This document shows positions 19,770 to 51,360 of a stretch of 64,000 nt of DNA, one piece after another. The notes below the pieces were generated by a model. It ran no database searches. It was not told where the DNA came from and was given only the letters and a program-made list of their open reading frames with translations. The stretch lies in the NCBI GenBank assembly GCA_963457665.1, contig OY735220.1, forward strand, positions 33,238,969 through 33,302,968. The letters are read 5' to 3'. The DNA comes from Thysanoteuthis rhombus. Taxonomy: Eukaryota; Mollusca; Cephalopoda; Oegopsida; Thysanoteuthidae. Positions within the stretch are counted from its first letter, which is position 1, and every line of letters starts with the position of its first letter. The position numbers and the translations under genes were made by a program.

Positions 19770-20059
19770 TTAAGTCCCAAGATTAATGAGATGAAGCCTC
19801 ACTGATAATTGATGGCTAAGGCCAACCACTTCTGTCGCGAGAGGATCAGCAAGAACCAGATATTGCTGCCTGATGTAATCGTGTAGGATTTTGCCAACAT
19901 AAACCTGGTCTTTTCTGCCTTGGAACGTGCAACAGAATGGCCAACTGAGGAGCAGCAGAGTCAATATGTGTTCAATACTGAAAGGTCTTATTTTTTGCTT
20001 AAATACTCGGCTTATTTTTTTATTACTTTCATTTTCTGTCCTTTGGGGGAAATTCTCAT
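19770..20059 (-). CDS. PCS1 coding exon 4 (C-terminus)
   Basis: Acceptor TTCATTTCAG, phase 1. It encodes a basic stretch, then [23 protein letters not shown] and a short tail ending LINLGT with stop at 19772-19770. The LLLLSW...GKILHD block is shared with PCS2 and resembles the LLLAL block of plant PCS C-termini. A candidate AATAAA lies about 570 bases downstream at 19196-19191. Confidence 0.85.
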
Positions 20060-23000
20060 CTGAAATGAATAAAATTGCATTTAATAATATGCACAAAAAG
20101 CCACTGAAAATGTTAGATTTTTCTTCAAAACAAGAACCTCAGAGAAAGGGAACTTCTATCAAGTTGCAGATGTTTTAGTTATAAGGTTAATGATCTAAGA
20201 GTTTTTATCAGTGTAATTCTTAGCACCATGAATAACCTATCAATGTTTACTTCTGCTAATATGGCTAAGTTGTGTTGGATACGCCGAAGTTGAGTGTTGT
20301 TGAGAGCCTGGTCATTACCCAGACGGTTGACCATCTTAGAATCCTGGGTGTCACATGCAGCAACAAAATTGTTCTGTAAACATCTCAGCCTATGCTCTGC
20401 TGCCGATTTATAAACCATCTTGCCAAGCTAGGACCGGACTGTACACTCAGTCCTTCCTCAGGTGCAGGTTTTCCCATGGAGGATCCGGTGTGCTCTCTTT
20501 GGACACACCATGCTTGATCGTGACCTCTTACTATAGAGATTATTTTTTATTTTTTTGCTTTTGTTGTTATCTGAAAATGTTTATATTAATAAGCTTATTT
20601 GTATATACTTCTTCCTTCAAACATGTTGACCATATTGTCGCAAGTGATTAAGTCAAAATGGAAAAGGTTTGCCTTTAAATGACAATAATTAAGGTCAAAC
20701 ATCCAAGAAGTTAGCTATGATGAGGTTTTAGCCGATTGTCTGCTGTTTCTCCAGAACTAGGGCTTTACAAAATGTTGAGAGTTCTAGAACCAATCAAAGG
20801 AGAATGGCAAAACAGAAGTGGAATAAATTATTGTTTCTTGTCTGGAATGAAGCTAATGGAGAAGGAGGATGAATTGTTCACTCTGGCTCAGAATGGACCC
20901 CCCCTCCTTGCAAGCTTTATGAATAGTAAATCACCTACTGCATTTCTATCAACATTACACAATAACAAATCTCACTGAATATTGGAGCCAAGTCCTTCCC
21001 CTATTCTCAGTGATGTCATTTCTTGTGGGATTTTTTCAACTGTTCAGTATGACTTCTTTTGTTTTTTTATTCATTTACACAGATGCACCATGAAATTTCC
21101 TCAAGTCCTGCTCGTAATAGTTCATCTTTTCAATGAACACGGATATAGTTTTCACTAACAAGATTTCTTGTAAAGGTAAGGTAAAGTGTCCCACCTCTTG
21201 CATGGCAATTCCCAATAGAGTACTGAGGCCAGTGATGAATTCCTGATTACTGTTGCCTGCATCAGCTTAGTGATCATTGCAAGTCTCAAGTCAGGTCAAG
21301 ACCAGGACTTAATTCCTACTAGTCTTCATAGCCTCCTCCCCCACACTTCTTGGGATGCTAGTCCACTCAAGGTATACCTCCACTCTAATCAGACAACTTG
21401 AAAATGTATTCAATTAGCTGCTGAGTAATTTGTCCAAATAATGAGTCTTCCAAACTCTTTACTCATTTCTGAGAATTGAGCCTCGGCAGATGTGCTAACC
21501 ATTACGCTATCTGAAGAGACACTATTTCTAGTGCAGTAGTAGTTTTTTGTTTTTTTTTTGTTTTTTATAAAAACTGATTCCTGCACATTTCTCCAATTAA
21601 GTAGAAGTGATTTGATTGAATAACTTTGATTAGTTAATATTTTTAGCCTCCACTCAAAAGAGAGTTTTTCTGGTCTGATTCAGAATGTTGAATCAGTGGT
21701 AAAGTAGTCTGATTGGGTTTTAAAAAAGCCATTTTATAGCCAACTGAAATTTGGACTTGTCCAACCAGGATTAACCAAAATACTTTATAATAAAATTAAC
21801 TTATGTTACTTGAATATTAAAAATTGTCAACATAGATTTCTTCAGTTTTTATGCTGGTTATATGTTTAAATAGTGTAGAAAGGCTGCACAAATGGAATCA
21901 GAAAGCTGAAAATTTCAACATTTACTTATTATGTCTTGGGAAATATGTTTGTTTTTTTTAAAAATCCACCCACAATAAGTTTTTAGTGGGAGTGGGGCTC
22001 AACTTGCCATGTAGCTTAATGCTAAATCAATCCCTTAATTCGTGTCTGCCTGTAGTTTGGGGGGTTTTGAGTGATCACTGCCCAACAAGAAGAAGAGAAG
22101 TAACTTATTCATGGATTACCCCACTTTTCCTATTGTTTGATGAATCAGACTCAACATGGTATGCTGCCAAAAGATATCATGCTGGTTTCTATTGAGTGAC
22201 TAACCTGACCTGTTTGATATTCTTTTTATCAATTTTGCTCTTATGATTTTTTTTTTTTAGAGAAAGAGAGAAAATGCTATTTACTTACAATTGTTTGATC
22301 TCATTCTCTGTAAAATTCTCCTGAACACATGAGTTTTTTCAACTTGCTGCAGCAACTCATGGTCATATTCCTTGGAAACTTTCCCGAAACAAGTGTTCCC
22401 TACATTGTGAATATCCAGCAAGATGTGCTCAGGTTTCAGCTTTGCCATCAAAGACAGAAGTTTATCGATGGTTTTTTGTAATGTTAAATCCTTTTGTGTT
22501 AGATCCGTCTCCTTGCGCAGATATGACATCCATTGTTGGAGAAAAGACAACACGTCCGGTGGAATTTCAGAAGGGTCAGTCAGCAAAATGTTGTGGGTGA
22601 TGCGAAAAAGAAACAAATGAGGATTCAACTTTCTTCTCAGTATAATGTAGCCGCGGGAATGTTCTGAATATTTTTCAAATAGAAAAAATGAAGAAATGAA
22701 ATTAGAAGCGATACGTGATCAGCTCTGGTTATTCTTTGAGAGTTGTTCACTGTATTTATTCCAGAGCAAGTTGAAGAAACATCAAGCAGTAAATTAAAAA
22801 CAATGGCATTCAAATTACAGAGTATTACAAGCAAATCAAAAAATATCTGCAGGAAAGACCCAGAATTTTGGGCTTTTTCAGGGAGAAAAATAATATAATG
22901 GGGTTGGGGGTACTTTAATATTATGGGCATCAACTTTTGGTAGGGATTAATGAAAAAGACCAATCAATTTTATCAAGAGAAAACATTTTATTAATTTAAC

Positions 23001-26000
23001 TTGAAAGAAATCAACATTTGCAGCAATTAAGCAGAAACTATAATTATTTGATCATTTTTGTTCATTGATTCTGTTTTCTTGTCATTGTTTTTAATTTGCT
23101 CACTGTATTTTTTCAATTTGCTTGATGTACTTCTCCTTGCAGTCTTTTATTTGCTTGCAGTAGTTGTTGAAATTCACAAGATACCATGTGTTGAATATAA
23201 GCCGTCAGAAGTTCAATCCACTGTACTGCATTTATGTACATCAACTGCTCTCTCCCTCCTTTGAACCTTGGATGCTAACATACAAATAAAGGGGACATAA
23301 CTCATTATTATTTAGAAATTAGTCTACAGAAGTCTTAGATTTGCTCCACATAGTTTTTGATTTGCTTACTGTACTTTTAAATTCTCTTTTTTTATCAGTA
23401 GGATTAAGAACAATATCTGAACTTCTATTTAAACATGAATGCTCAATGGATAAATGAATCACTGTTGCCTACACACATACCAATACTAATTATCTAAAGA
23501 ATTGGATCTTTTATCCAAAATATAAAAATAAAATCCAGCACAACCATAGAGATGTCAAAAAGCACTTTTTTTGAAAGAACAACAGAAGCATTTCTAGATG
23601 GTACCTTGTAGTGTACCTACAGACAAGCAAAGAGAATCTGTTGTCCATTTGGCTGGTTTGTAGTGCTGGCCATTTGTGGGACTACAGTGATTCTATAACC
23701 TTATTCAAAGATTTCACTGATGAATTCTTCATGTGCCAATCCTTTAGGCCCTTTGAAAAAATCCCAAGATTATTTAAATGACATAATCATTATCATAATT
23801 TGCGACATGTCAGTCTGACATATCAAATGGAACAAAAGGAAAAAATTGGCTGTTGTGTGTACATGTGTTTTCGGACTGCTGAAAGTATAATTACAACTAC
23901 TACTACTGCTACTGTTATTGGTGTGTCCATTAGAAACTGTCAACCAAAGCTGTCAGCAAAGGTTTCTTCGGTTTTCAAATTGGTCTATCTGTCTGTTTGG
24001 CTGGCTATGTATGCACCATGCATACAGACCACACCAATGGAGCTAGAGAGTGGACATTTTAAACATTTACACCTTATCAAGTCTAGAAAAAACACTTTTT
24101 TTATTCGTTTTCTGAAAATTTCACCGCAAAATAGGTTCTATGAGGGAGGGGCGGTCAATTTTCAATATAAATTTATGCCAAATTGATCCCTTAGTTTGTG
24201 TCCCACAGCATTCATAGTTTTTTTTTGAAAATTCAGACTTTTTTAGTAATCATTGCTCAACCAAAGGCGAAAGAAGTAACTTATTCGCTGATCACCCATT
24301 CTTCCAATTTTTTAATTGATCAGCCCTGAAATGGCATGCTGCCAAAAGATGTTGGTTACATGAAGTTCTTCATTGGGTGACTAACCAGACCTGCTTTGTT
24401 TTTTTTTCCCAGAATGAATTCAAGAATTTTAGTCAACGATACCTTCCAAATTACTGTGTTAACATACTGACTCAGGACATAGCTTTAGGCCTACCATTAG
24501 CAAAGCAACAGGGATTTACCATTCCAATAACACTGTTTACTAACCTGTGAATTCATCCGTTACATTCATAGCCTGGAGTAAGAAAGGCAGTTTTATCCAA
24601 TAAGGAGGATACTTGAACCGTGCTGTGTCAAGGAGAAGAATGAAATCTTTGGTTGGATGATAACCACCGACTGGTGAGAAATCAATGTCCCCACTCTGTT
24701 GAAGAGATTCTCGTGAATAAGATGCTACTACAAAAGAATCATCACGCAGCGTTTGCTCTTTGATAATCTACAAAAAAAAACATTTATCACAAATATATCA
24801 CAAAAATGACCAATAAAAGATAATGGGTGATGACGATAATTTGTTTGTGTGTCCGAAAAATTAAGTTTGATTTTGGATAACTAGCAAAAGATACTTTTAT
24901 TGAATCAGTTGAACTGCTGAGACGACATTATATATTTAGCTTTGCCAACAGAAGGAATTGTATCAAAAAAAATGTTCTTTCAAAAAGCTTTGAAAGCTCT
25001 GATTTAACATGTAATAAGGGTTTGTATTGAAGGTGTGAGTATTTTATAAATTTTTATACTCGTGTAATAAGCTAGTTTCTTTTGATAGATTATTTTTAAA
25101 CATTTTAATAGAAGTAGAGTTTACTGTTTCTTTTGATAATGAATCCCGGGATGAAAGGGATCTTGATGTCATAAATCTGTCTCTATTAAAAGAATAGTGA
25201 TGTATTTGGTATTAGTGACTGTGACCTCTCTTCGTTGTTCTGAGTCTTCTTTATAGCATGAGTTTACTCTATATGCATATCTTACAGCGAGTGCCTGTGT
25301 CTATATCTACCATGAGTGTCATCTTGTAAATATGTGTCAGGTCACTTCTTAGCCTTCTGTACTGAAAAGTGGGAATCTGTAGTATCCTCAGTCGGTCTTT
25401 GTATGGAAAGTCTTTAAGAAGTGGTACCACCTTGGTAGTTCTGAAGCCCCTCTAATATTTCTTGGTCTTTTTTGGTGTGAGGAGACCAGATACTGCTTGC
25501 GTATTCTATAATTGGTCTAACTGGGGTTTTGTAATGCATTTCGAATATAGTGGTGTCCATCCATGGGTTTGAACGTGCTGCGGGTTATATAGAACATCTG
25601 ATTTACTTTATTGATCTTGTCTTTAGTATGTTTATTGAAATTTAGTTGCTCATCAGATCTTTTCACTCAGTTATGTTATTTAGGATGTAGAATATATTAT
25701 ATGATCATAAGTTGTTCCCAGATATTGTATTATTTGTTTAGTAATGGTATAATGGCATTTTTTGTTGTTTGAGCCCATATGTATAGAGTGACATTTGTCA
25801 ATATTGAAAATGTTAAACTTGATTTCTACAAATATTGGTATTTTGGATTTGAACTTGGACAAAAGATGACAAACACTATTTGCATAAGGAATTTTTCTAT
25901 TTCTAAAGTTAGTATCATAAACTACTATCAGCTTAGCTATGTATTGATCACTTTACTTGATAGTATTTCAAAAGTACAGAACATTTCAATCAACAAATTC

Positions 26001-27725
26001 CTATCTATTTAATGACTAGCCGATTCATGTGAGGAAGAAAAAAAAATCGCTGGTATATTTGAATTCATATGAGATGATATTTTTAAGAAAAGAAACTACC
26101 AAACTAGTTTAGGTGGAAGAGTTCATTGTCTTATTAAAAAAATTGTTACTTTTAAGTGAAAGAGTCTATTGTTATGGACAAAGAAACTGAAAAAGTCATA
26201 CTATGTTTTTAATTGTGCGTGGAAAAGGTAACAATCACCTTTTTTTTTATTAAATCAAGTATTGTGTGCCATTATTTTAAATTTTGACGACTATATTCCT
26301 TCAACTTAATCTTTAGTTGCTTTTTATCACACCTTGACTCAGGTTGTTGACCTATGGCAGTGATAAACTGCACACATCAGAGATGAAGGATTATTTTCTA
26401 GTGAGACTCGATCCAGTACAGAAACAAACATGGTGCTGGAGAGATCAAAATGGAGAGTGGGTTCAAGGGTTGGATTTGATCTCTTGAGTTATCAAGATCA
26501 TGTAGCTCAGAGTGTTAAGAGTAGCTGGGCATTTACTGGGTTTCCCGAGGCAGAAAGGACGTTAGATATCATTCTCAAGAAAAGAAGATACAAAAACCAG
26601 CACGTATATCTAATAGTTGAATGATAATAATGATTTTCCAAAATATACATAAGAAAGAGAGTTAGATATCAGATCAAAGTACCGAGAAAGCATGCCAAAG
26701 GGATTTTAAAAATTTTGTATTCTATTCTCCTTTCTTCCCTGTCATTTGGAATATTAACACATCCAAGTTTTTTCAAGGATTACAAAGCAAGGGCGGTGAG
26801 GACATAAAGGATGTATTCTAAGTTTTTTTTAATTGAAGGCAAAATCATAAAAATATAATGGTCATGTGACTTCATTATCTATTCAAAATGGCCGTCATAT
26901 TCTGGATTTCCATTCATATATGAGCAGGAGAGTGAGTAAGTAAGTGTATGGTTTAATTTTTAATTTCATCAAAATAAAAATTGCATCTTTTTTTTTTTTG
27001 TCCTCCTGGTTCTGTAACACTCATTCCCTTATGAAACTTAGAAATCCAATCATTTGCATGTAGGTGCTTTTGATCTTGCCAAGACATGCATTGCTCTATG
27101 TAACCTTATATCACTCTGAAGAGTTGGTGTTGGGTATCCGGGTTAGTAAATCTAGAGAGACAGAGAGATATAAGCTCTGTAATACACTGTTTTGGGCACA
27201 AAATGTAAAGCTCATCTATGGCTTCAATCAACAGAAAGAAAAATATGATAAAAGACAAGCAAAAAATAGACATTTATAGCCGAAAAGTAATTGATAGGCT
27301 GTTAGAAAATAGGAATGAATCACCTGTCGGAAATCTTCTTCAGAATTGTAATCTGTATACTTGATTGAGGTATCCAGGTAATTGCAATCAGCCACAGAAG
27401 CAAATTGTTCCATACTAATGGTTCTTCTCTTTTCTTTCGAGCTGGGGGTGCTACAGTTCAACATAGTTTCATGGTACCATCTCCACGGTTCCTTCCAAAC
27501 AACCCCAGGGTCAACAACCAAAGCATTGAGAATCATCACCAAGGTGGACAGGCCACAGTAAGTGGGTTCATCTTGAGTACGAAACTGGGCAGCTAATTTG
27601 AAGTAACAGTTCATGTGACCAGTGGCCAAAGCTTCTGAAAATATGACTTTGCCTTCTTCTGAGTAGAACGAAATGCATTCTTCCGGAAGAGTCATACGAA
27701 ATAATTCTTTTCTGTCCCCAGACAT
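19770..27725 (-). CDS. PCS1, phytochelatin synthase paralogue with altered catalytic triad (four coding exons)
   Basis: Phytochelatin synthases are papain-like gamma-glutamylcysteine dipeptidyl transpeptidases that build (gamma-Glu-Cys)n-Gly from glutathione for metal binding. Coding exons are 27725-27324, 24767-24545, 22663-22289 and 20059-19770, with phases 0, 1 and 1 at the introns, giving 429 residues. The N-terminal catalytic domain spans about residues 12-225, and a weakly conserved C-terminal domain carries LLLSWPFCC. Using the Arabidopsis PCS1 triad C56-H162-D180, the equivalents here are C57 (in TYCGLS), D163 instead of His (GDIDFSP instead of GxGHFSP), and D181 (in DTARFKYP). Conserved Cys91 and Cys109 equivalents are Ser, and the usual PPHW is PPYW. 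All splice sites and the frame are intact, so this is not an obvious pseudogene. Predicted to be inactive or altered in transpeptidation. Confidence 0.9.
21170..21525 (-). repeat. tRNA-derived SINE
   Basis: The reverse complement of 21480-21515 reads TAGCGTAATGGTTAGCACAT, a tRNA A-box and D-loop, followed by a unique body that runs down to 21170. No terminal duplication identified. Confidence 0.55.
21975..22217 (-). repeat. Repeat family A, copy 2 (partial)
   Basis: Reverse-oriented. The part from AGGTCAGGTTAGTCACTCAAT to the internal GAGCCCCACTCCCAC block is present; the distal half is missing. It starts about 70 bases from PCS1 exon 3. Confidence 0.7.
22289..22663 (-). CDS. PCS1 coding exon 3
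   Basis: Acceptor ATATTCAG, donor AACAATT|GTAAGT. The first two bases complete a Glu codon, then HSRGYIILRRK continues the end of the catalytic domain (Arabidopsis counterpart RRGFMLISR). The rest is helical C-terminal domain sequence (PPDVLSFLQQWMSYLRKE) with a single Cys in NTCFGK. 375 bases, phase 1 on both sides. Confidence 0.9.
23500..23710 (+). repeat. Repeat family B, copy 1
   Basis: GGATCTTTTATCCAAAATATAAAAATA, then CACTTTTTTTGAAA, CTAGATGGTACC, and CATTTGGCTGGTT...GGCCATTTGT. The same order recurs at 44826-45375, where the first block is amplified into a tandem array. Confidence 0.6.
23934..24400 (-). repeat. Repeat family A, copy 3 (near full length)
   Basis: Reverse-oriented, from GTCAACCAAAGCTGTCAGC to TGACTAACCAGACCTG, about 465 bases. 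It lies in PCS1 intron 2, 145 bases from exon 2. Confidence 0.75.
24545..24767 (-). CDS. PCS1 coding exon 2 (catalytic His replaced by Asp)
   Basis: 223 bases, phase 0 in and 1 out, the same length as in PCS2. It encodes DDSFVVASYSRESLQQSG, then DIDFSPVGGYHP, then [14 protein letters not shown]. The codon at 24683-24681 is GAT (Asp163) where the family has the catalytic His. The preceding residue is Ile in place of Gly. Acceptor TTTTTGTAG and donor ACAG|GTTAGT are good. Confidence 0.93.
25140..25680 (-). mobile_element. LINE remnant, reverse transcriptase C-terminal end
   Basis: Read backwards it gives KDKINKVNQMFYITRSTF, then VRPIIEYASSIWSPHTKKD and EILEGLQN, the typical tail of non-LTR reverse transcriptases (LVRPhlEYA..vWsPh). 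Frame shifts and stops interrupt it. Lies in PCS1 intron 1. Confidence 0.75.
26265..26600 (+). repeat. Repeat family D with a tRNA-like head
   Basis: Block TTGACGACTATATTCCTTCAAC...TTTAGTTGCTTTTTATCAC, then GACTCGATCCAGTACAGAA and TGTAGCTCAGAGTGTTAAGAGTAG (A-box-like). A shorter copy lies at 29335-29570 and a degenerate one at 18500-18660. Confidence 0.6.
27324..27725 (-). CDS. PCS1 coding exon 1 (nucleophile Cys57)
   Basis: 134 codons from ATG at 27725. [27 protein letters not shown] and PWRWYHE are family landmarks, and C57 is the predicted nucleophile. The start is chosen because the same position begins the paralogue and metazoan homologues. It lies two bases after a poly-pyrimidine AG acceptor, so a further upstream exon exists. 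The donor is GACAG|GTGATT. From about residue 90 the sequence departs from the family: NCS where DCC is usual, FASVADC where FxCxAxC is usual. Confidence 0.93.
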
Positions 27726-28347
27726 TTCTGAAAAAAAAAAAATAGTAGATGTTAAATCAAGATTGGGTTATCCTTACACATCAGGCACTAAAAAGAATTA
27801 TGTAAATATTGGAAAAAGTTACCTCCCTTCATGGCTATAGATGATATAGACTGAGGGTGACAATAAACTGATTTTTTACACAAATATGCAGTCAAAAAAG
27901 GTTCAAATCTTCACGGAATATGAAAATATTCTACTGCAAATGGATATAGAAATATCAATAAGTATTAGAGAAGATGCAATAGAAATATTTAAAATAATTA
28001 GAGGTATATTGGTTCATTTATTCATTTATTAAATAAAATGACTTTTATGCATCTCCGTAAACAATTTACATTAAAAAAATATGTACTCAGCATTAAAATA
28101 CAAATTAATTCAAGTTGTAAAAATTGTCTACACCACACACTTCTGAAAAATCTCCACCTAAATCTTATTTTTAAAATGAGTTACATCAATGTTAAGTGCG
28201 CTCGAAAAATCATACTTAGGCTCAATTATTTAGTAAATGTTTAAATTTTATTTTGATAATATATTATTTAAAGATCAAAATCATACATTTCATTCATTTT
28301 CATTATCGTCTTAATTTCTGGCCAGTCTGTTGTATAATTATACCTAC

Positions 28348-28456
28348 TGAAAACTTCGAATGAATTTTTGAGCGCATTCAAAATTTCAGCAATAAAGTTA
28401 GCTGGAAATGGACACGGGGAAAATCTAGCCAATTTTTTGCCAGAAAGCAAAGCCAT
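28348..28456 (-). CDS. Possible upstream coding exon of PCS1 (N-terminal extension)
   Basis: ATG at 28456 has A at -3 and G at +4 and opens MALLSGKKLARFSPCPF and 19 further codons before a GTAGGT donor at 28347. Spliced to the acceptor before 27725 it stays in frame (A+AA = Lys, then MSGDRK), adding 37 residues. Composition is basic and amphipathic with no acidic residues until near its end, so a targeting peptide is conceivable. I found no equivalent upstream of PCS2, and known PCS proteins start near MSGDRK. It could instead be a 5' UTR or belong to nothing. Confidence 0.3.
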
Positions 28457-29334
28457 ATTTTCCGAAGTTTAGGTCACTGGTCGCATGTGCTCTTCTCCGT
28501 GGGAATCCAATGTGGCCCCTACTGCACATGTAACGTAAATTGCAATCTATTTAAGAAAGTATAATCACTGTTTCTTTGAGAAGAAAACATCGTTATTAGC
28601 TCGATAGGCATCCCAGCCATGTATAACCAATCAAAACTTAGCTGTGTGTCTTTCTGTCAAGTTACCGCCACTACCACGACTTCGGAACGGCAGCGTGCAC
28701 CCACTCAATTTTCGAAGCATCTTTTTTAAAAACGTATTTTAACGATTTATTATTACCTAATGGTTTAATTTTGGTTACAATAGCATGAAAATAGCATAAA
28801 GTTTTCAATGAAAACGAATTGCGTATAACAGAATGTCTCTCACTTATAGAAAAGCCATCCTGAATGCTGATTCCATAATTTGATTTATAAAAAAAAAAAA
28901 ATAAATAAACGTAAAATTGAAAGTTTATCACAAAATTCTTTTTATGAGTCTTTTTAAAAACGTATAGCAACAATCAAAGATCTTCTTCTTGAGAAATTTA
29001 ATTATGGTTATAATTGCAAGTAAGTTGCACATGCCAAAATATTTATAGAAAAAAACTCTAGTTGGCATTACTGTTAGCAGGTAATGGTAAAACCATCATT
29101 GACCATAGTAGACAAATATTTCCCAACTAAGAAGCACCATTTCCGATCACTAACAATCCGTTGCTGCTCTATTGTTTTATGCGTGCCCCGATTACCCAAA
29201 TTAGTGTTGCGTAAAATCGCAATAACTTTCTTACTAATTACAGTAGATCAAAGATTTGGGTGCCATTGGAAAGCTCTTTCAGGGGATACCAAGTTTCAAT
29301 GAAATGATTTAATTTGAATTTTTCAGCCATATAT

Positions 29335-39514: not shown

Positions 39515-39985
39515 TGTAAGAGTAATCAGGTCTTGTTAGTCACTTAATAGAAGCCATCACATGGCCAACATCTTTTGGCAGCATGCCACATTGAAGTGAT
39601 CAATTAAAAAATTAGAAAAAGGGGTGATCCATGAATAAGTTATTTCTGTCGTCATTTATTTGGCAGTGATCACTATAAAAAACTGAATTTTAATGAAAAA
39701 CAAGCGTGAATGCTGCCAGACACAAACTGAGGGATCAATTTAGCATAAAATTACATTGAAAATTGAACTCCCACTAAAAAAACTTTTTTGGTGGGAGGTT
39801 CAAAAAAGCAAAAAATGTTTTTTTCCAGACATATGAAGGACTAAAAGTTTGAATTTCCAGCCCTTTAGCTCCACTAGTGTGGTCTGTATGGATGATACAC
39901 ACCCAGCTAGGCAAAACCAGTCAGGCGAACCAACTTAAAAACTGATACTGACAGTTCTGGTTGATGGTTTCTGATAAAGTTTAGA
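39515..39985 (+). repeat. Repeat family A, copy 4 (near full length)
   Basis: From AGGTCTTGTTAGTCACTTAATAG to GACAGTTCTGGTTGATGGTTTCT. The near-terminal AGAAGCCATCA and TGATGGTTTCT are inverted partners, which hints at a terminal-inverted-repeat element. Confidence 0.8.
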
Positions 39986-43401: not shown

Positions 43402-43407
43402 TTTATT
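43402..43407 (-). terminator. Polyadenylation signal of PCS2 overlapping the stop codon
   Basis: Minus strand reads TGAATAAAA: stop and canonical AATAAA share bases. Confidence 0.5.
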
Positions 43408-43738
43408 CAATGTTTTTTTTTACAACAACTTTTATTTTCTTGCTGGATCTGACAAATTTTTAGCACGACAGCCAATTGTCGATTGAGGCCAGCCACTTCA
43501 TTGATCAGAGATTCACTGGCTGGTTGAAGTTGCTGACTCAAGGCATCGTGTAATATTTTGCCAATCAGTAATGGTTGGTTCTGCTCTTGTGGCGCCATTC
43601 TTCCTGCACAGCAGAATGGCCAACTAAGAAGTAACATGCAGAAGAGATATTTGTTGTCGATGGAGATGTCAAAGATGTGCTGAGAGGAACTTGGATATTT
43701 TCCGGATGTAGGATTTGTGGCTTCAGCCATTTTTTGAG
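43407..43738 (-). CDS. PCS2 coding exon 4 (Cys-rich C-terminus)
   Basis: Acceptor GTTTCAG. It encodes [11 protein letters not shown], then [15 protein letters not shown], then a tail ending SCCKKKH. The TGA at 43409-43407 overlaps an AATAAA (43407-43402), so the 3' UTR would be only a few tens of bases if that signal is used. Confidence 0.9.
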
Positions 43739-46700
43739 CTGAAACGAAATCAAGAGGAAAATAAAGTGGGATGATCAATGAAAAACTTAAAAACACCTGC
43801 TTTTTGTGTTGATGATTGAAGCGTAAATAATTAATGACAGGATAAAGTAATCTGACTATAGAATTAGACTAGGATAATTAGTTAAATGAAATTAAAAAAT
43901 CTACTAACATTCGAAAGGGAAATTATGAATCATTGCCATTCATATGTGCTGCTTTTTACCTAAAAAATAATCAGTGTCAGTGGTAAAATTGAGTTGCCTT
44001 GATGAAAATACTACCAGTATGGTTTAAATTATAAATTTATGATTAAAAAAAGACAGATCTGATAAGTCACTCGATTGGGTGATCAATTAAAACATTAGTA
44101 AATGGAGTGATCAATGAACATATTACTTTTCATGCTTTTGGGGGGCTATGATCACTATAAAGTACAAATTGTAAATACTGCTGGACACAAACTAAGGGAC
44201 CAATTTAGCATGAACTTTCATTGTAAATTGAACCCCAATAGAAAAATAAAGGAGACAAATTTAAAAACAACAAATTATTTTCTCTATTCTGGAGAGGGAA
44301 GTGTGCGTGTAAAATTTCAAGATCCTACAATGTACAGTCAAGGCTTGAGCAGAGTCATAGATATATACATATAGATGTCAGAACATATTAATAACCTAAA
44401 CCCAGCAACAGTGATTAAACTGGTCCCGGAAAGAAAAGTAGAAGTCTGTGAGGAAGAAAATCTTATTGTCTGAAAAGCTAGCAAGATATGTGATTGATGA
44501 GCGAGACCAGGCAAATACGAGAAAACAATGCAAAAGTTACAGAATATCATCTCTTTAATTTTCTTTTGACAAAGTAAAAACTTCATCTTCTCCCCATCCC
44601 CATCTTTGATGTTGTCAACACAACATTTTGTCCAACCCCTTCTCCAGCTCTTATCAGGTATATGATTCAAGGAAAGAAACAAATCTTCGGCCAACAGAAA
44701 ATTTGGCGTCCACTAAAAGTATATTTCCGATCATTTAAGAAATTTAAACATTATAAAACTATAGAAATATAAACGAATCAATATAGTGTGCATATGTACT
44801 AGAACTAATTGAATATCATCTGAAAAAATAAATCTTTTATCAAAAATTATCATATAAAAATAGATCTTTTATCTAAAATTATCTGATAAAAATAGATCTT
44901 TTATCTAAAATTATCAGATAAAAATGGATCTTTAATCTAAAATTATCAGATAAAAATAGATCTTTTATCTAAAATTATCTGATAAAAATGGATCTTTTAT
45001 CTAAAATTATCTGATAAAAATAGATCTTTTATCTAAAATTATCAGATAAAAATAGATCCTCTATCTAGAATAATCATATAAGAATAGATCTTCTATCTAA
45101 AATTATCTAAAAAAATACTAGCACAAGACTTGGATATTGTCAGTCCAAAATGACAATAGAGATCCAAAAAACACTTTTTTGATAAAAAACCCTATACAAT
45201 GTTTTTAGATGGTATCTAGTGGTGTATTCATGTAAATTTCCAATTTCCTAGAATGTGACTAGAAGTGCCTGTAGACATCTATGCAACCACAGACACACAA
45301 ACTCGCAAAGAGTGAAGAATCTGCATCCCATTTGGCTGGTTGGTTGGCCATTTGTACAGTGATTCGATAGACATTTTAAGACATAAGTGAGACACAAAGG
45401 CCTCCAAACGTCTCAATCCAGCTGTCAGAACAATCCATTTTTCGGCAGTATCAAGTACACAGATATGATCATACCAGCAATCAAGCACTCAGGCAATTCC
45501 AAAAATTATACACGGGAGAAGTTCCTAAACAACTGCTTTGCTAAGCAAAGAAAACCATATGGCGTTAAAATCCATACTAGCCCGACGTATGCATTCCATT
45601 GATGAGCTGATAAATGCAGTGTCCTTCAACTTGCTCACTCTCCAACGTAGCTCCTTGTCTGTATTCTTGAGAAAGTAATGTGTATCTTTTTCACTCTAGA
45701 AACCTTTACAAAAATGTTTGCTGCTTTACTTAGATTATTCACCTGACAAGGACTAAAGAATGGATCGGCTAAAAAGTTGTATTGACAACATCAAAGATCA
45801 GAAGAATAGATTCGATTGTCCAAATAAAAGTTGGAAAGTTAATGACTCTTTGCAAACTTATAAACGATTCATTTACCTTCTTGTACTTTCATCTGCTCTT
45901 CAACAATTGTGAACAATTCAATTTGTTTCACTTGCTGAAGTAATTCATGAATGGCACACCGATACTGTTTGGTCACTTCACAAGGACAACCAATGTCCAC
46001 CTTCTGGGTTTCTAGAAGCGTCTGTTCAGGTTCTAGTTCCATGGCCAAAGACAAAAGTTTAGCAACTGTTTTGCGCATGACCTTTTCCTGATTGTCTTCA
46101 GTTGTTTCTTCTTGCAAATACGAAGACCATTTATTCAGAAAAGTCAATATTTCTGGTGGCGTAGAGTAATGAAGACTCAGAGACAAACTACTGGAAATGC
46201 CAAATAAAATAAGGGGACCTGAATTCTGTTTCTTTTTGAGAATAACGTAACCTCGTGGCAAGCCTGGAGAAAAAAAAAATGACATTGTTGTCAAAAAATT
46301 GACTGATTTACAATTATTAGTAGATGGGGGATTTCAGAAAACATAAGACATTTCAGTTTGGGTGACAAATTCATCTTCATGTAAAAACTCAGACAATTAC
46401 AACATTGCAAGGTTAAACTTCTTTTGGGCTTCATGTCTTTCATAAAAATGAGTTGGAAAACCATACATTTGGGGATTTGAAAGAACTTATACAAGTACAG
46501 GTAAAGCTCCTATTTTGCACAAGATGCATTCCAAGAAAATAGACAATCCAGGAGCTTTATCCAATCAGGGAACAATTACTGGTGAAGCCTCTTTTTTTTT
46601 GCGACTTCTTTGGTATAGTATTGTTCAAAGTAGGAGCAAACAAAGTCGAGGACTCACTTGTAAATTAGAATATGAATTTTCAGTAAGAAAAAGCAAGGAT

Positions 46701-49700
46701 AAATTAAAATTTCTTTTGATTTTTGAACTTTTGTTTTTTCCTTTGAAAAAGATATAAAAATTGAAAATTCACTTTTTTGTATGACAAACATGAAACCAGA
46801 ACAAAAACTTTTGAACAAGACTTAAAAAATACATCCATATCAAACGCGATTCCTTCATCTTTTTTCTGCTCAACAAACAAGGGATCTGAAATGAGATTCA
46901 TATAATCAAGGCATCCTTACGAGTTCCCTCCAAATCTTTATATTCTACTACTACTTGAGGGCCTCTGAGGATAGGGTAGTCCATTGCACTGGGGTGCAGA
47001 GAGCCAAGTGTTGTCCAAGACTTCCTTAGGTAAAGTCAGTGAAGTTGTATATTGGAACTACCAAATCAAAAATATATGTTCATTCATAAAATAGGTTGAC
47101 TCCATCATTTAGCTGTGGGTGAATATAGTATGACATGCTGAAAGGGTGATGACAGATGAAAATAGGATGGCTAAAAGACAAGATGTTTGTGCAATGTATG
47201 TGTGTGGGTCAGGAGGTGGGAGTGGGCATGACTCTGCACTACCTTATAATGTTTCTCTCAGAGGGCTCTATTGTGACTACTACTACCACTATCACAACAA
47301 CAACAAATACTCTGCAATGATAAATCAAAATGCTGTCTAATCGTATCTGCTGTACACTTCATTACAGTTTTGATTAATTTTCTAATAATTCGAATTTGAA
47401 CAATCAATTCCATTAAATTCATTTAAACAATAACATACCATAATGTTACCAAAATAATTTTATGCTAACCTATGAAAAAGATAAAATACAAATAATTAGT
47501 CATTCAATGAAAAACCATTACATGATCACCATCTTTTGGCAGCATGTCATGTAAGGGATGATCAATTGAAAAATTGGAAAAGGGCTGGGATCAATGAATT
47601 ACTTACTTCTCTCGCCTTTTGATGGATGTTGATTACTAAAAAAAGCCCGCTTTAAAAAAAAAAGCATGAATGCTGCAAAACACAAACTGAGGAACCAGTT
47701 TAGCATAAGCTTACATCGTTAATTGAAATCCCAACTTAAAAATCTATTTGACGTTGAAATTTGAAAAAAACCTGTAAAAACAAATAAATGTTTCAATTTT
47801 CAGCCCTCTAGTTCCATTGATGCAGCCTGTAAGATGATACAGGCATAGATGGCCAGCCAGCCGTACTAACTTATGTTGACAGTTTTGGTTGACGGTCTCT
47901 TATTATGGATGGAATTTTAAATTTATGCTGAAATGGAATGTAAGACTTCTTCACCATAAGAACAGGACAGTCAGTTCCAAAGTTGTAAATTTTGTTTTTT
48001 CAATGCCAAGTGTCTTGGATCTATGGTCAACATGGCTATCTCACACACACAAGGTCTTGTGTTTGATTCTCGGTATTAGCGAAGAGTATAGAAAACCCTT
48101 TATTTGGAAAAATCTCCCTCTGCACTTAGCAGCTAATTGAGTACACTCTAAGCAGTGTGATTAGGATGGAAGAAAAAAAAATCAACAAATGATCAAGGGG
48201 AGATAATTGTAATTAGACATTCTATTTTCTCAGTATGAATTTAAAAGTTAATCCAACGAATATTCTGTTTAAATGAAAGTTGTGAAGTAATCAAATTTCA
48301 TTTCAACTTTAATTCTTTCAGAATTTAAAAATTGTGCAAAACTGACCAGTGGATTTGTCCAGGGCATTCATGGCTCTCAATAAAAGTGAGACTTTAATCC
48401 AATGTGGAGGATATTTGAACCGAGCAGTGTCCATAATGAGAACCAGATCCCGCCCAGGATGGAAGCCTGCAATGGGTGAAAAGTGTCCATCTCCAGTCTG
48501 TTGGAGAATTTTCCGAGAATAAGTCGCAACAATAAATGAGTCATCGCGTTGAGTGTATTCATCTATAACCTGATGGATGAACAAAAGAATGTCTTTAAAA
48601 TTCATGAAATGCAATTCTTCAACTTCTAAAATTTCTCTTTTTTTTTTTGGTAGATTTTGGGCTAATATCATATTTAAATTATTACAAAATGTTTTCATCC
48701 AATTCAAGAATCTAAACAGAGCGAAAAATATTTCATGTAAAAGTGAATAGAGTTTTGGATATAACATAATCTTCTTGATAATTATAAACAAAAAGACATT
48801 TGGGCGCCATATACTTCGAAGGACCCAGATTTCAACCATCAGAAAGATTACTCTTTTGGTCTTGTAGTGATTTATTTCATTACACAATTCTTACTAGGAC
48901 ACAATCCTTGTTTTGATTAAAGTTAGAGTGGTGCAGCGGGAAATTTGCAATTTAATAAAACTTGAATTAAAGTTCATACGGGAAATGAAAGTTTGGTTTG
49001 TTTATTCAACTTCAAAATCCAAAACTAAACAAAAAGTAAATAAATAAAATTGTTTGGTGTTAAGATACAAAAAAATATTTTAAGATAGAAATCGCGAATA
49101 TTATGCCGTGTTGCTCTAACTTGTGTCAAAACCAGGATTTTGTATTAAAACAAATCACTACTGGTGAAAAAAAGTAATCTTTCAGATGTTTTGAATTTGG
49201 GTCCCCCAAAGTGTTATTTTGCTAACATGTCATATAAAATAGAAAAGAGGAACCTGAAATATGAATTGTATCAAAACAGTACAACAAGAAAGAAAAATTT
49301 ATGGAAATAACAAGAGAAGATATTCTGGATCTAAAATTGTGTATTCAGTGTAGACACTTATAGATCAATAGTGAGTCTTGGTTGGAGTCTCAATAATTTC
49401 CCAGGACCAATGTTAGGCAAATCTTGGAACACAGTTCGGCAACTTACAGCCCACAAAAGGATTTTGACCGAGTCATAAACAAATTAAGCTGATTCTTTAT
49501 GTCCTCAAACAGATTCAAAAGATGCCTTGACTGAAAGAAATTCCAACCTAGATTGAGTTTTTTTATCACTAATTGGCATCCTTGGTTAAGCACAAACAAT
49601 ATTGTAGCATGTATTATTCCTAGATTTGAACCAAAATATAACCAGATGTATTTGAATAGATAATTTCCATGTTTCTCTGAAGTAATCTAATGGTTCTAGG

Positions 49701-50843
49701 TTCAATCCTAGTGTAAGATAATAATAATTTGAAAATACTACCACTGCTACGAGAGGAGTGCGGTCTATATACCCCCCGTCGATTAAATAAAGGGTTCGGT
49801 TCGTTACTTCCCCCACACCTACCAGATGATACCTGATGAAGGCCGTAGAGTAAAACTGCCGAAACGTTGTATGAAAAACAACCAAGATGAGGATAGTCCG
49901 AATAATAATAGAAAGGATAATTTCCATATTTCAAGTTTTTTTTATGGCATTTATCTGGTCCAACATTTACCCATCAATATGTCATCTGGCCTGCACAGGC
50001 AAAAAGACCAACAACCTATCTTGAAAGTTATAAGTAATATAATCTTCCTTACTTGTTTTTTTTCTTGAATATTATTGAGTCTCAATAAAACTGTGTAGAA
50101 GTAAGTTTAGAGTTTCACATTTGATAAGCTCTGAACAAAAATTATAAATTCATTAACAGGCATAGTTCCCTCTAAGCTGCAGCCAGCACACAAAGGAAAT
50201 TAATGTCCACACAAAGGGTTTAAAATTTCAAAGTCAACTCACTAAGTTTTTATTGAAATCAAAAGTGTACATATACTTGCTACAAAAAAGTAGAGAGAAC
50301 GCTTTTTACATATTACATATAAAATCAGTAAGTAAAGCCTTTTCTAGCAACATCAACTACTTAACTACTCAACATTTACTTTATAGGAAATCAATTTAGT
50401 TAAAAGAAGTGATAATAAAAAGTGAACAGCACCTTTCGGAAAGCATCTCCTGAGTCTGGATCTGGACGAACATATGTTGATAAAAGAGAATTGCACTCTG
50501 CAATGCAGGCAAATTGTTCAAGATTTACTCCTTCACTCTTTATGATATTCAGAGGGATGCAGCAGTCGAGCATATTTTCATGGTACCATCGCCACGGCCC
50601 CTTCCAAACGACCCCAGGATCAACGTCTAAAGCATTGAGAATCATCACCAAAGTGGAGAGGCCGCAGTAGGCAGGTTCATCTTGTGTGCGAAACTGGGCG
50701 GCTAATTTGAAGTAACAGTTCATGTGACCAGTGGCCAAAGCTTCAGAAAATATGGCTTTACCTTCTTCTGAGTAAAATGAAATGCATTCTTCTGGAAGGA
50801 CTCGGCGGAAGAACTCCATCCTTGTTTTCTTTGGATCTGACAT
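43407..50843 (-). CDS. PCS2, phytochelatin synthase with intact triad (four coding exons)
   Basis: Coding exons are 50843-50433, 48569-48347, 46263-45877 and 43738-43407, with intron phases 0, 1, 1 as in PCS1, giving 450 residues. The triad is present: C60 (EPAYCGLS), H166 (GDGHFSP), D184 ([12 protein letters not shown]). MLDCC and FACIAEC keep the conserved N-domain cysteines. The C-terminal domain is Cys-richer than in PCS1: GCPC, FCM, WPFCC, a KIC and a terminal SCC. It is predicted to make phytochelatins from glutathione when activated by Cd, Zn or other thiophilic metals, in the cytosol. It lies about 15 kb upstream of PCS1 on the same strand, a tandem duplication. The family assignment is certain; activity is inferred from residues. 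Confidence 0.95.
44050..44265 (+). repeat. Repeat family A, copy 5 (partial)
   Basis: AGATCTGATAAGTCACTCGAT through GGACCAATTTAGCATGAAC. In PCS2 intron 3, opposite to the gene. The open frame 44114-44374 is repeat-derived. Confidence 0.65.
44826..45115 (+). repeat. 32-bp minisatellite, about nine units
   Basis: Unit ATAAAAATAGATCTTTTATC followed by TAAAATTATCTG. Units differ by one to three bases and are more degraded at both ends. Each unit contains GATAAAA...TTTTATC, an inverted pair able to form a hairpin. Confidence 0.92.
45130..45375 (+). repeat. Repeat family B, copy 2
   Basis: ACACTTTTTTGATAAAA, TTTAGATGGTATCTAG and CATTTGGCTGGTTGGTTGGCCATTTGT match 23560-23680 in order. The minisatellite directly precedes it. 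Confidence 0.6.
45715..45840 (+). repeat. Repeat segment shared with 17140-17260
   Basis: CACCTGACAAGGACTAAAGAATGGATCGGC...GACAACATCAAAGATC...ATTCGATTGTCCAAA matches the block 0.4 kb beyond PCNP. Ends undefined. Confidence 0.55.
45877..46263 (-). CDS. PCS2 coding exon 3
   Basis: Acceptor TTTCTCCAG, donor GAAG|GTAAAT, phase 1 both sides, 387 bases. It begins [11 protein letters not shown] (end of the catalytic domain) and continues into the C-terminal domain with [18 protein letters not shown], a GCPC pair and a coiled, Gln/Glu-rich end. Confidence 0.92.
47495..47910 (+). repeat. Repeat family A, copy 6
   Basis: In PCS2 intron 2: CATCTTTTGGCAGCATGTCA through GTTGACAGTTTTGGTTGACGGTCTC. Confidence 0.75.
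48010..48150 (+). repeat. tRNA-derived SINE
   Basis: GGATCTATGGTCAACATGGCTA then TCTTGTGTTTGATTCTCGG (B-box-like). In PCS2 intron 2. Confidence 0.5.
48347..48569 (-). CDS. PCS2 coding exon 2 (catalytic His166 and Asp184)
   Basis: 223 bases, acceptor CATCAG, donor CCACTG|GTCAGT. It encodes [29 protein letters not shown] and [12 protein letters not shown]. Family-typical throughout; closest in character to nematode PCS-1 (QTGSGHFSPLAAYH). Confidence 0.95.
49585..49960 (+). repeat. SINE-like/Penelope-type repeat with hammerhead-like core
   Basis: A B-box-like GGTTCTAGGTTCAATCC at about 49692, then CTGATGA (49833-49839) and GAAA (49861-49864) separated by 21 bases, with GGC/GCC able to pair. 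Hammerhead ribozymes are known from Penelope-like elements and from some SINEs and retrozymes. I could not identify a cleavage site with certainty. Confidence 0.4.
50164..50302. repeat. MITE-like element, third copy (short)
   Basis: AGTTCCCTCTAAGCTGC at the left and GTAGAGAGAAC at the right are inverted partners. It lies about 130 bases downstream of PCS2 exon 1, in intron 1. Confidence 0.55.
50433..50843 (-). CDS. PCS2 coding exon 1 (nucleophile Cys60)
   Basis: 137 codons, ending at donor CGAAAG|GTGCTG. Residues 15-90 are almost identical to PCS1, including a run of 44 identical bases (50701-50744 against 27592-27635). The ATG is preceded 13 bases upstream by TTCTTGCAG, so a noncoding 5' exon probably exists. 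Confidence 0.95.
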
Positions 50844-51084: not shown

Positions 51085-51360
51085 CACTACAAAATTTTCC
51101 AGTGACTCAACTTAGAAACCATCATGTGAATGTCTCAGCATGCCATGTTGGGGTTGAGCAATTAAAAAATTGGAAAAGGTGGTGATCAATGGAAAAGTTA
51201 CTACTTTCGCCTTTTGTTCAGCAGAGATCAATAAAATTGAAATTTTCAGCCCTCTAGCTCCATTATATGCGTTATACATATATAGCCAAGTAGACCAACC
51301 TGAAAACTGGAGAAACCTATGTTAAGAGTTTTGTTTGATGGTTTCTAATATCTAGTGAGT
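51085..51360 (+). repeat. Repeat family A, copy 7 (internally deleted)
   Basis: Between PCS2 and the upstream terminal exon. AACCATCATGTGAATGTCTCAGCATGCCA joins directly to TCAGCCCTCTAGCTCCATTA, skipping the middle. Confidence 0.7.

Follow-up and report, generated by a model that had tools for sequence, protein, structure and literature searches.

PCS1, a gene within a 64,000-nucleotide stretch of the genome of the cephalopod Thysanoteuthis rhombus (assembly GCA_963457665.1, contig OY735220.1, positions 33,238,969 to 33,302,968; hereafter the window), encodes a phytochelatin synthase (PCS) paralogue with aspartate in place of the catalytic histidine. It belongs to a tandem array, PCS1-PCS2-PCS3, in which PCS2 and PCS3 retain the Gly-His motif at this site. 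Its structure is intact, it has evolved faster than its sisters in the part of the protein that holds the altered site, and it has been under constraint when the gene is taken as a whole. On balance, and with moderate confidence, we consider PCS1 to be a pseudoenzyme that has been retained although it probably no longer makes phytochelatin, and that perhaps serves a ligand-binding, non-catalytic role.

Gene structure and the altered active site

PCS1 lies on the minus strand and consists of four exons encoding 429 amino acids (Table 1). In the splice model of the window its frame is free of stop codons and all introns have GT/AG borders, in agreement with the original prediction of an otherwise intact gene; a frame-damaged pseudogene is thereby ruled out. 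The TAG triplets (one or two) counted in genome-search matches to exon 2 arise because these matches overrun the ends of the exon and take in intron sequence; they fall outside the exon, and one is the splice acceptor. The exon structure had been said to match that of PCS2. Exon phases (0, 1, 1) and splice sites are indeed identical, but only exon 2 is equal in length (402, 223, 375 and 290 nucleotides in PCS1 versus 411, 223, 387 and 332 in PCS2). Both proteins cover positions 3-210 of the 210 in the PF05023 profile, of which PCS1 is a homologue at 248.9 bits against a curated cut-off of 24.9.

The predicted GAT codon at residue 163, aligned with His162 of the Arabidopsis enzyme AtPCS1, is present on the minus strand and encodes Asp163. 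The change is, however, wider than the His-to-Asp replacement first described, since the preceding Gly has also become Ile, so that GDGHFSP in PCS2 and PCS3, given as GTGHFSP for AtPCS1 in the original prediction, corresponds to GDIDFSP in PCS1. The nucleophile Cys57 and the third triad residue Asp181 are kept, as had been stated, and so is Gln51; the spacing from the Cys to the His column is 106 residues, equal to that between Cys56 and His162 of AtPCS1. Measured against active phytochelatin synthase (EC 2.3.2.15), PCS1 thus has the oxyanion Gln and the second-substrate cavity, but the Cys-His-Asp triad is broken by Asp163 in the His column. A lost catalytic residue in an intact frame is what a pseudoenzyme paralogue would show.

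The site was compared with relatives obtained by scanning bacterial and archaeal genomes. The scan confirmed 334 relatives, the best 80 of which were used together with the Nostoc sequence from the PDB, giving 81. The first 67 (43-54% identity) are referred to here as close relatives, and the remaining 13, joined by the Nostoc protein, as the 14 distant ones. The scan patterns include the RFKYPPxW motif near the site, relatives without either pattern lying outside the sample. Gly and His occupy the Ile162 and Asp163 columns in 81 of 81, and the Gln51, Cys57 and Asp181 columns are equally invariant. Across the 43 columns with at least 90% conservation among these 81 sequences, PCS1 departs at four (one in common with PCS2) and PCS2 at two; the adjacent Gly-His pair makes up two of the four PCS1 departures, and its change goes beyond chance noise. 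When the close set is taken alone and its 60 columns of at least 95% conservation are considered, seven departures are found in PCS1 only (R11M, C92S, G102T, C110S, G162I, H163D and H190Y), none in PCS2 only and one in PCS3 only; without PCS3 in the comparison there are eight, including G79E, where PCS3 departs too. No viral or phage relatives were found (52 pattern matches, none confirmed, and none at 1e-5 in a separate search), while 16 plasmid records with relatives stand outside the residue counts.

Mutagenesis of AtPCS1 gives these changes their functional meaning. Substitution of Cys56, His162 or Asp180 is described as abolishing its activity (PMC3101182, PMC11314372, PMC12899622), with His162 stated to be absolutely required (PMC3101182, PMC11314372), so PCS1 is expected to be dead for phytochelatin synthesis. 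By this analogy its activity should be lost: with the imidazole gone, Cys57 would not be activated, and without an activated Cys57 both the deglycylation of glutathione and the transfer of gamma-Glu-Cys would be abolished. It is very unlikely that PCS1 still makes phytochelatin by means of another base, such as a histidine of the C-terminal region or a residue supplied by a partner. PCS1 does keep the Cys, the oxyanion Gln and the cavity and has 14 histidines in total, but the loss of activity described for His162 substitutions in AtPCS1 argues against such a substitute, as does the additional loss of the conserved His at position 190, which leaves exon 2 with H171 alone, a residue common to PCS2.

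An error of sequencing, assembly or gene modelling at the Asp163 codon is also extremely improbable. The stretch 24678-24692 (GGGGACATTGATTTC) has an out-of-frame GGACAT (Gly-His) four bases off the expected place, which may hint at two compensating indels. A comparable GGACAT-type match, however, arises by chance near 36 of 865 codons, and an error would call for at least three base changes, or for two compensating 4-base indels within 15 bases with the frame kept. Further near-invariant sites are changed in both exons, and only a single copy of each PCS1 exon was found in the assembly. Restoration of His by adenosine-to-inosine editing is ruled out, GAT being convertible only to GGT (Gly) and ATT only to GTT (Val).

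While the catalytic histidine has been lost, the substrate cavity has been kept. The second-substrate cavity of AtPCS1 is described as consisting of Gln50, Glu52, Tyr55, Arg152, Gln157, Phe184, Lys185 and Tyr186 (PMC3855540), and all eight are present in PCS1 with numbers higher by one (Q51, E53, Y56, R153, Q158, F185, K186 and Y187). Together with T50 and R184 (Thr49 and Arg183 of AtPCS1), this amounts to ten of ten cavity and loop residues. Ser51, Phe155 and Lys156 of AtPCS1 are replaced in PCS1 by the same residues as in PCS2. In a model of AtPCS1, Arg152 is described as contacting His162, Asp180, Tyr186 and possibly His189 (PMC3855540); because two of these partner positions are changed in PCS1 (Asp163 and Tyr190), the contacts may plausibly have rearranged so that Arg153 pairs with Asp163. 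The kept cavity and the constraint on the whole gene point towards ligand binding without turnover; judged from its residues, PCS1 has most likely kept the ability to bind glutathione or a metal thiolate. The kept catalytic-domain signature, nucleophile loop and cavity would preserve such binding, and PCS1 would then act non-catalytically, either by binding ligand in partnership with PCS2 and PCS3 or modulating them, or in a peptidase-independent role.

A second group of changes concerns cysteines. The four of the N-terminal domain (AtPCS1 positions 90, 91, 109 and 113) read CCCC in PCS2 and in 63 of the 67 close relatives and CSSC in PCS1, and they are absent from the 14 distant relatives. 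AlphaFold models of group E proteins are reported to contain two disulfides, Cys102-Cys125 and Cys103-Cys121 in Thalassiosira (PMC11314372). These correspond to the AtPCS1 pairs 90-113 and 91-109, and PCS1 is without exactly one of them (91-109). Total cysteines number 8 in PCS1, 16 in PCS2 and 14 in PCS3, of which 3, 9 and 6, respectively, lie past the catalytic domain. The loss would fit a lost metal-dependent activation of PCS1. The C-terminal region itself is present and can be aligned with those of PCS2 and PCS3; scans of PCS1 and PCS2 gave no Pfam family above cut-off in this part.

The altered site might instead have acquired a different chemistry, with Cys57, Asp163 and Asp181 forming a new metal-thiolate site or a slow hydrolase and PCS1 acting as another enzyme or as a metal receptor. 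Such a change, which we consider quite unlikely, is consistent with the nucleophile and oxyanion Gln kept beside two acidic residues and with the constraint over the whole gene, but the low cysteine number is opposite to what a cysteine-based metal sensor would have, and the Gly-to-Ile replacement at position 162 may disturb the shape of the loop. The upstream region offers a further point in its favour. Four TGCRCNC motifs, resembling metal-response-element (MRE) cores, are found at 28197-28702, two of them overlapping; this places them 0.5-1 kb ahead of the PCS1 start codon. The 6 kb preceding PCS2 and PCS3 contain none, and there are no more at 3-6 kb upstream of PCS1. In first-order resampled sequence, at least four such cores in 3 kb have a probability of 0.02, without correction for the three genes, and these MRE-like cores are a lead only. 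Cephalopods accumulate high cadmium in the digestive gland. It is conceivable, if decidedly unlikely, that the Cys-Asp-Asp site serves as a receptor for metal-glutathione complexes through which PCS1 would regulate the phytochelatin output of PCS2 and PCS3; if true, this would be a dedicated pseudo-phytochelatin synthase in a cadmium-rich animal group.

Selection, rate and gene conversion

A branch codon model was fitted to PCS1, PCS2 and PCS3 over 425 codons with a script of our own. Whole-gene ratios of nonsynonymous to synonymous substitution (dN/dS, omega) were 0.24 for PCS1, 0.19 for PCS2 and 0.12 for PCS3; a single omega for all three was not rejected (p=0.19), and omega=1 was rejected for PCS1 (p=0.0026). 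In PCS1 residues 95-208 omega=1 was rejected as well (p=0.0008), but this fit gave an implausible PCS3 branch. A dN/dS below 1 had been proposed as a check on the original prediction, and in this three-paralogue model it is borne out by the gene as a whole, while two of the four partitions do not reject 1. The lack of stops also speaks against long neutral drift: in a neutral simulation the frame stayed stop-free with a probability of 0.063 when 0.05 substitutions per site were allowed, and of 0.002 when 0.10 were.

Constraint was also assessed at columns that are identical in PCS2 and PCS3. Among these, changes in PCS1 affect 8 of the 58 columns with at least 95% conservation in the close set and 32 of 99 others (p=0.013); the corresponding counts are 6/32 and 26/53 in residues 95-214 (p=0.006), and 1/25 and 5/44 within a tract of probable gene conversion described below (p=0.41). 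A first count, in which PCS1 departed at 11 of 60 conserved and 97 of 147 other columns, was set aside as evidence on PCS1 because it includes departures that predate the duplication; the test that replaced it is weaker.

Within exon 1 of PCS1, a stretch of 245 bp resembles PCS2 more closely than the remainder of the gene does. Agreement of PCS1 and PCS2 at fourfold-degenerate sites is 17/29 in residues 13-94, 4/26 in residues 95-208, and 5/19 and 5/11 beyond; residues 13-94 thus differ from the rest (14/56) at p=0.004. PCS2 and PCS3 have no such contrast (12/29 versus 14/36, 9/21 and 3/11; p=0.82). The Cys half of exon 1 has probably been homogenised with PCS2, as judged from these synonymous sites, and the His half has not. 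Trees built with about 24 outgroups (every third of the 67 close relatives) pair PCS1 with PCS2 in the Cys tract (support 96) and PCS2 with PCS3 in residues 95-214 (support 92), while in the C-terminal part the count of informative sites is once more highest for PCS1 with PCS2 (126 versus 108 and 80). Because the acceleration of PCS1 may itself cause the PCS2-PCS3 pairing in the middle part, topology is weakened as proof of conversion, and the synonymous-site contrast is the better evidence.

Several of these results weigh against retention of PCS1 under selection. Two partitions of PCS1 do not reject omega=1, namely the 331 codons that begin at residue 95 (p=0.077) and the 82 codons of the tract (p=0.12). 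Synonymous divergence between PCS1 and PCS2 is near saturation, so the branch omega estimates are rough. If PCS2 and PCS3 are additionally required to match the bacterial consensus, the depletion of changes at conserved columns is no longer significant (7/55 versus 10/46, p=0.29). Conserved columns at which the other two copies agree have changed in 8 of 58 cases in PCS1, compared with 0 of 50 in PCS2 and 1 of 51 in PCS3. In residues 95-214 the path from the common node is 0.77 for PCS1 and 0.33 and 0.30 for its sisters (a smaller outgroup gives 0.85 versus 0.39 and 0.32), a rate about 2.2-2.6 times theirs that would be expected of a decaying gene too. Finally, since gene conversion may explain the retention of Cys57, this residue is weaker evidence for selection on PCS1.

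PCS1 might therefore be a gene recently released from selection and now decaying, its active site having been hit before any stop codon or frameshift arose. The rapid evolution of this copy, its seven unique departures at near-invariant sites, the partitions in which neutrality is not rejected and the form of the conserved-column test without depletion all fit such a course. Even so, we judge decay unlikely. It would have to explain how two neighbouring invariant codons took three or more nucleotide changes between them when Cys57, Gln51, Asp181 and all ten cavity and loop residues were kept; a stop-free frame leaves room for little more than 0.05 substitutions per site under neutrality; and the whole-gene omega of 0.24 and the rarity of PCS1 changes at conserved columns (8/58 versus 32/99) point to constraint. 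PCS1 is constrained, but clearly less so than PCS2 and PCS3, and beside a slow decay of this kind a retained pseudoenzyme is the best-supported explanation. The original prediction had also named a pseudoenzyme as probable, beside a regulator and a peptidase or ligand-binding protein with changed chemistry. The pseudoenzyme reading is supported by the invariance of the His (81/81), the AtPCS1 mutagenesis, the intact gene and the whole-gene dN/dS below 1; the retention of Cys57, lying in a probable conversion tract, says less about selection on PCS1 than it might seem to.

The tandem array and its surroundings

All coordinates are collected in Table 1.

Table 1. Features of the PCS array (window positions unless a contig is named)
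Feature	Position	Strand	Remarks
PCS1 coding part	19770..27725	-	GT/AG-bordered splice model, no stop; PF05023 E=3.7e-74
PCS1 exon 1	27324..27725	-	402 nt; carries Cys57 and Gln51
PCS1 exon 2	24545..24767	-	223 nt; carries His-to-Asp site and Asp181
PCS1 exon 3	22289..22663	-	375 nt
PCS1 exon 4, including stop codon	19770..20059	-	290 nt
PCS1 Asp163 codon GAT, at catalytic His position	24681..24683	-	His in 81/81 bacterial relatives
PCS1 Ile162 codon ATT, at Gly preceding catalytic His	24684..24686	-	Gly in 81/81 bacterial relatives
PCS1 Cys57 codon (nucleophile position), kept	27555..27557	-	
PCS1 Asp181 codon (third triad residue), kept	24627..24629	-	
PCS1 Tyr190 at conserved His (AtPCS1 His189 position)	24600..24602	-	His in 66/67 close relatives; Val in 14 distant
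PCS1 Ser92 at conserved Cys (AtPCS1 Cys91 position)	27450..27452	-	Cys in 67/67 close relatives
PCS1 Ser110 at conserved Cys (AtPCS1 Cys109 position)	27396..27398	-	Cys in 65/67 close relatives
Probable gene-conversion tract with PCS2 (50554-50798)	27445..27689	-	245 bp, 87.8% identity
PCS2 coding part	43407..50843	-	450 aa, canonical triad; PF05023 E=1.6e-84
PCS2 exons	50433-50843, 48347-48569, 45877-46263, 43407-43738	-	GT/AG borders
PCS2 catalytic His166 codon CAC	48483..48485	-	
PCS3	contig C25:33325335-33334067	as PCS1 and PCS2	Intact, 454 aa, GDGHFSP; beyond window end

The assembly searched comprises 2.73 Gb in 514 contigs. A search with PF05023 (E 0.001; 10 candidates, all scored) gave six exon matches, and one with the PCS2 protein (E 0.01; 18 candidates, all scored) gave twelve, corresponding to three genes of four exons each; all lie on contig C25, and at these thresholds no further PCS gene was found elsewhere in the assembly. 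Matches to exon 2 are confined to PCS1, PCS2 and PCS3 in both window and assembly, with no second, His-bearing copy of PCS1 exon 2 and no haplotype copy found. No PCS exon matches occur in the 10 kb preceding the window. The presence of PCS in a cephalopod is not new as such, since an expressed sequence tag for PCS from the squid Doryteuthis pealii is already mentioned in PMC3838358.

Translated matches between the PCS1 and PCS2 regions were also found beside and between the exons, at 21820-22190, 23930-24340, 39600-39980, 47510-47900 and 51130-51250; these repeat-like segments seem to be a dispersed repeat. Four of the window's 81 stop-to-stop open reading frames of at least 75 amino acids were scanned, and none of the four had a Pfam match above cut-off. 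Elsewhere in the genome, the tyrosinase/hemocyanin family has 66 matches. Nine hemocyanin functional-unit matches of equal score, each with a 464-aa open frame, follow one another in tandem every ~2.18 kb outside the window (C25:56608286-56626269). The best domain of one hemocyanin unit in this genome scored 726 bits against PDB 6r83 (self match 782), which is presumably squid hemocyanin, and another unit scored 706 of 970; these scores fit a cephalopod, and probably a squid, as the source.

Comparison with known phytochelatin synthases

PCS1 is not a new kind of system. It resembles the eukaryotic enzymes (AtPCS1 and the Schistosoma mansoni enzyme SmPCS, as well as PCS2 and PCS3) in its near end-to-end PF05023 domain and in Cys57, Gln51, Asp181 and the cavity, but differs from them in the replaced Gly-His and in the loss of two of the four N-domain cysteines and, compared with PCS2 and PCS3, of most C-terminal cysteines. 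The 'half' PCS of Nostoc, alr0975 (PDB 2btw, 2bu3, 6tho, 6th5 and 6tjl), has a catalytic domain homologous to that of PCS1 (E 1e-25 to 4e-24) and is about 30% identical to PCS2; unlike PCS1, it keeps GGH at the site. It is described as having no C-terminal region (PMC11314372).

SmPCS-2 of Schistosoma mansoni and SrPCS2/4 of Sesbania rostrata are, like PCS1, without the full Cys-His-Asp triad, and these triad-less forms are reported to have given no cadmium tolerance in yeast (PMC3101182, PMC12899622). They are, however, splice variants of an intact gene, whereas PCS1 is a gene in its own right, complete in length and altered by point replacements. Among the titles and beginnings of abstracts listed in literature searches, these splice forms appeared, but none of the listed records dealt with a PCS gene whose catalytic His had been lost. 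The functionality of animal PCS was described in 2013 as little known (PMC3838358).

Full-length and constrained but lacking the catalytic His, PCS1 stands next to two intact paralogues and offers a natural test of a non-catalytic PCS role. Such a role has a precedent in Arabidopsis PCS1, for which Hematy et al. in 2020 reportedly described a peptidase-independent part in fungal defence; there a single protein has both roles, whereas here the non-catalytic one would belong to a separate copy.

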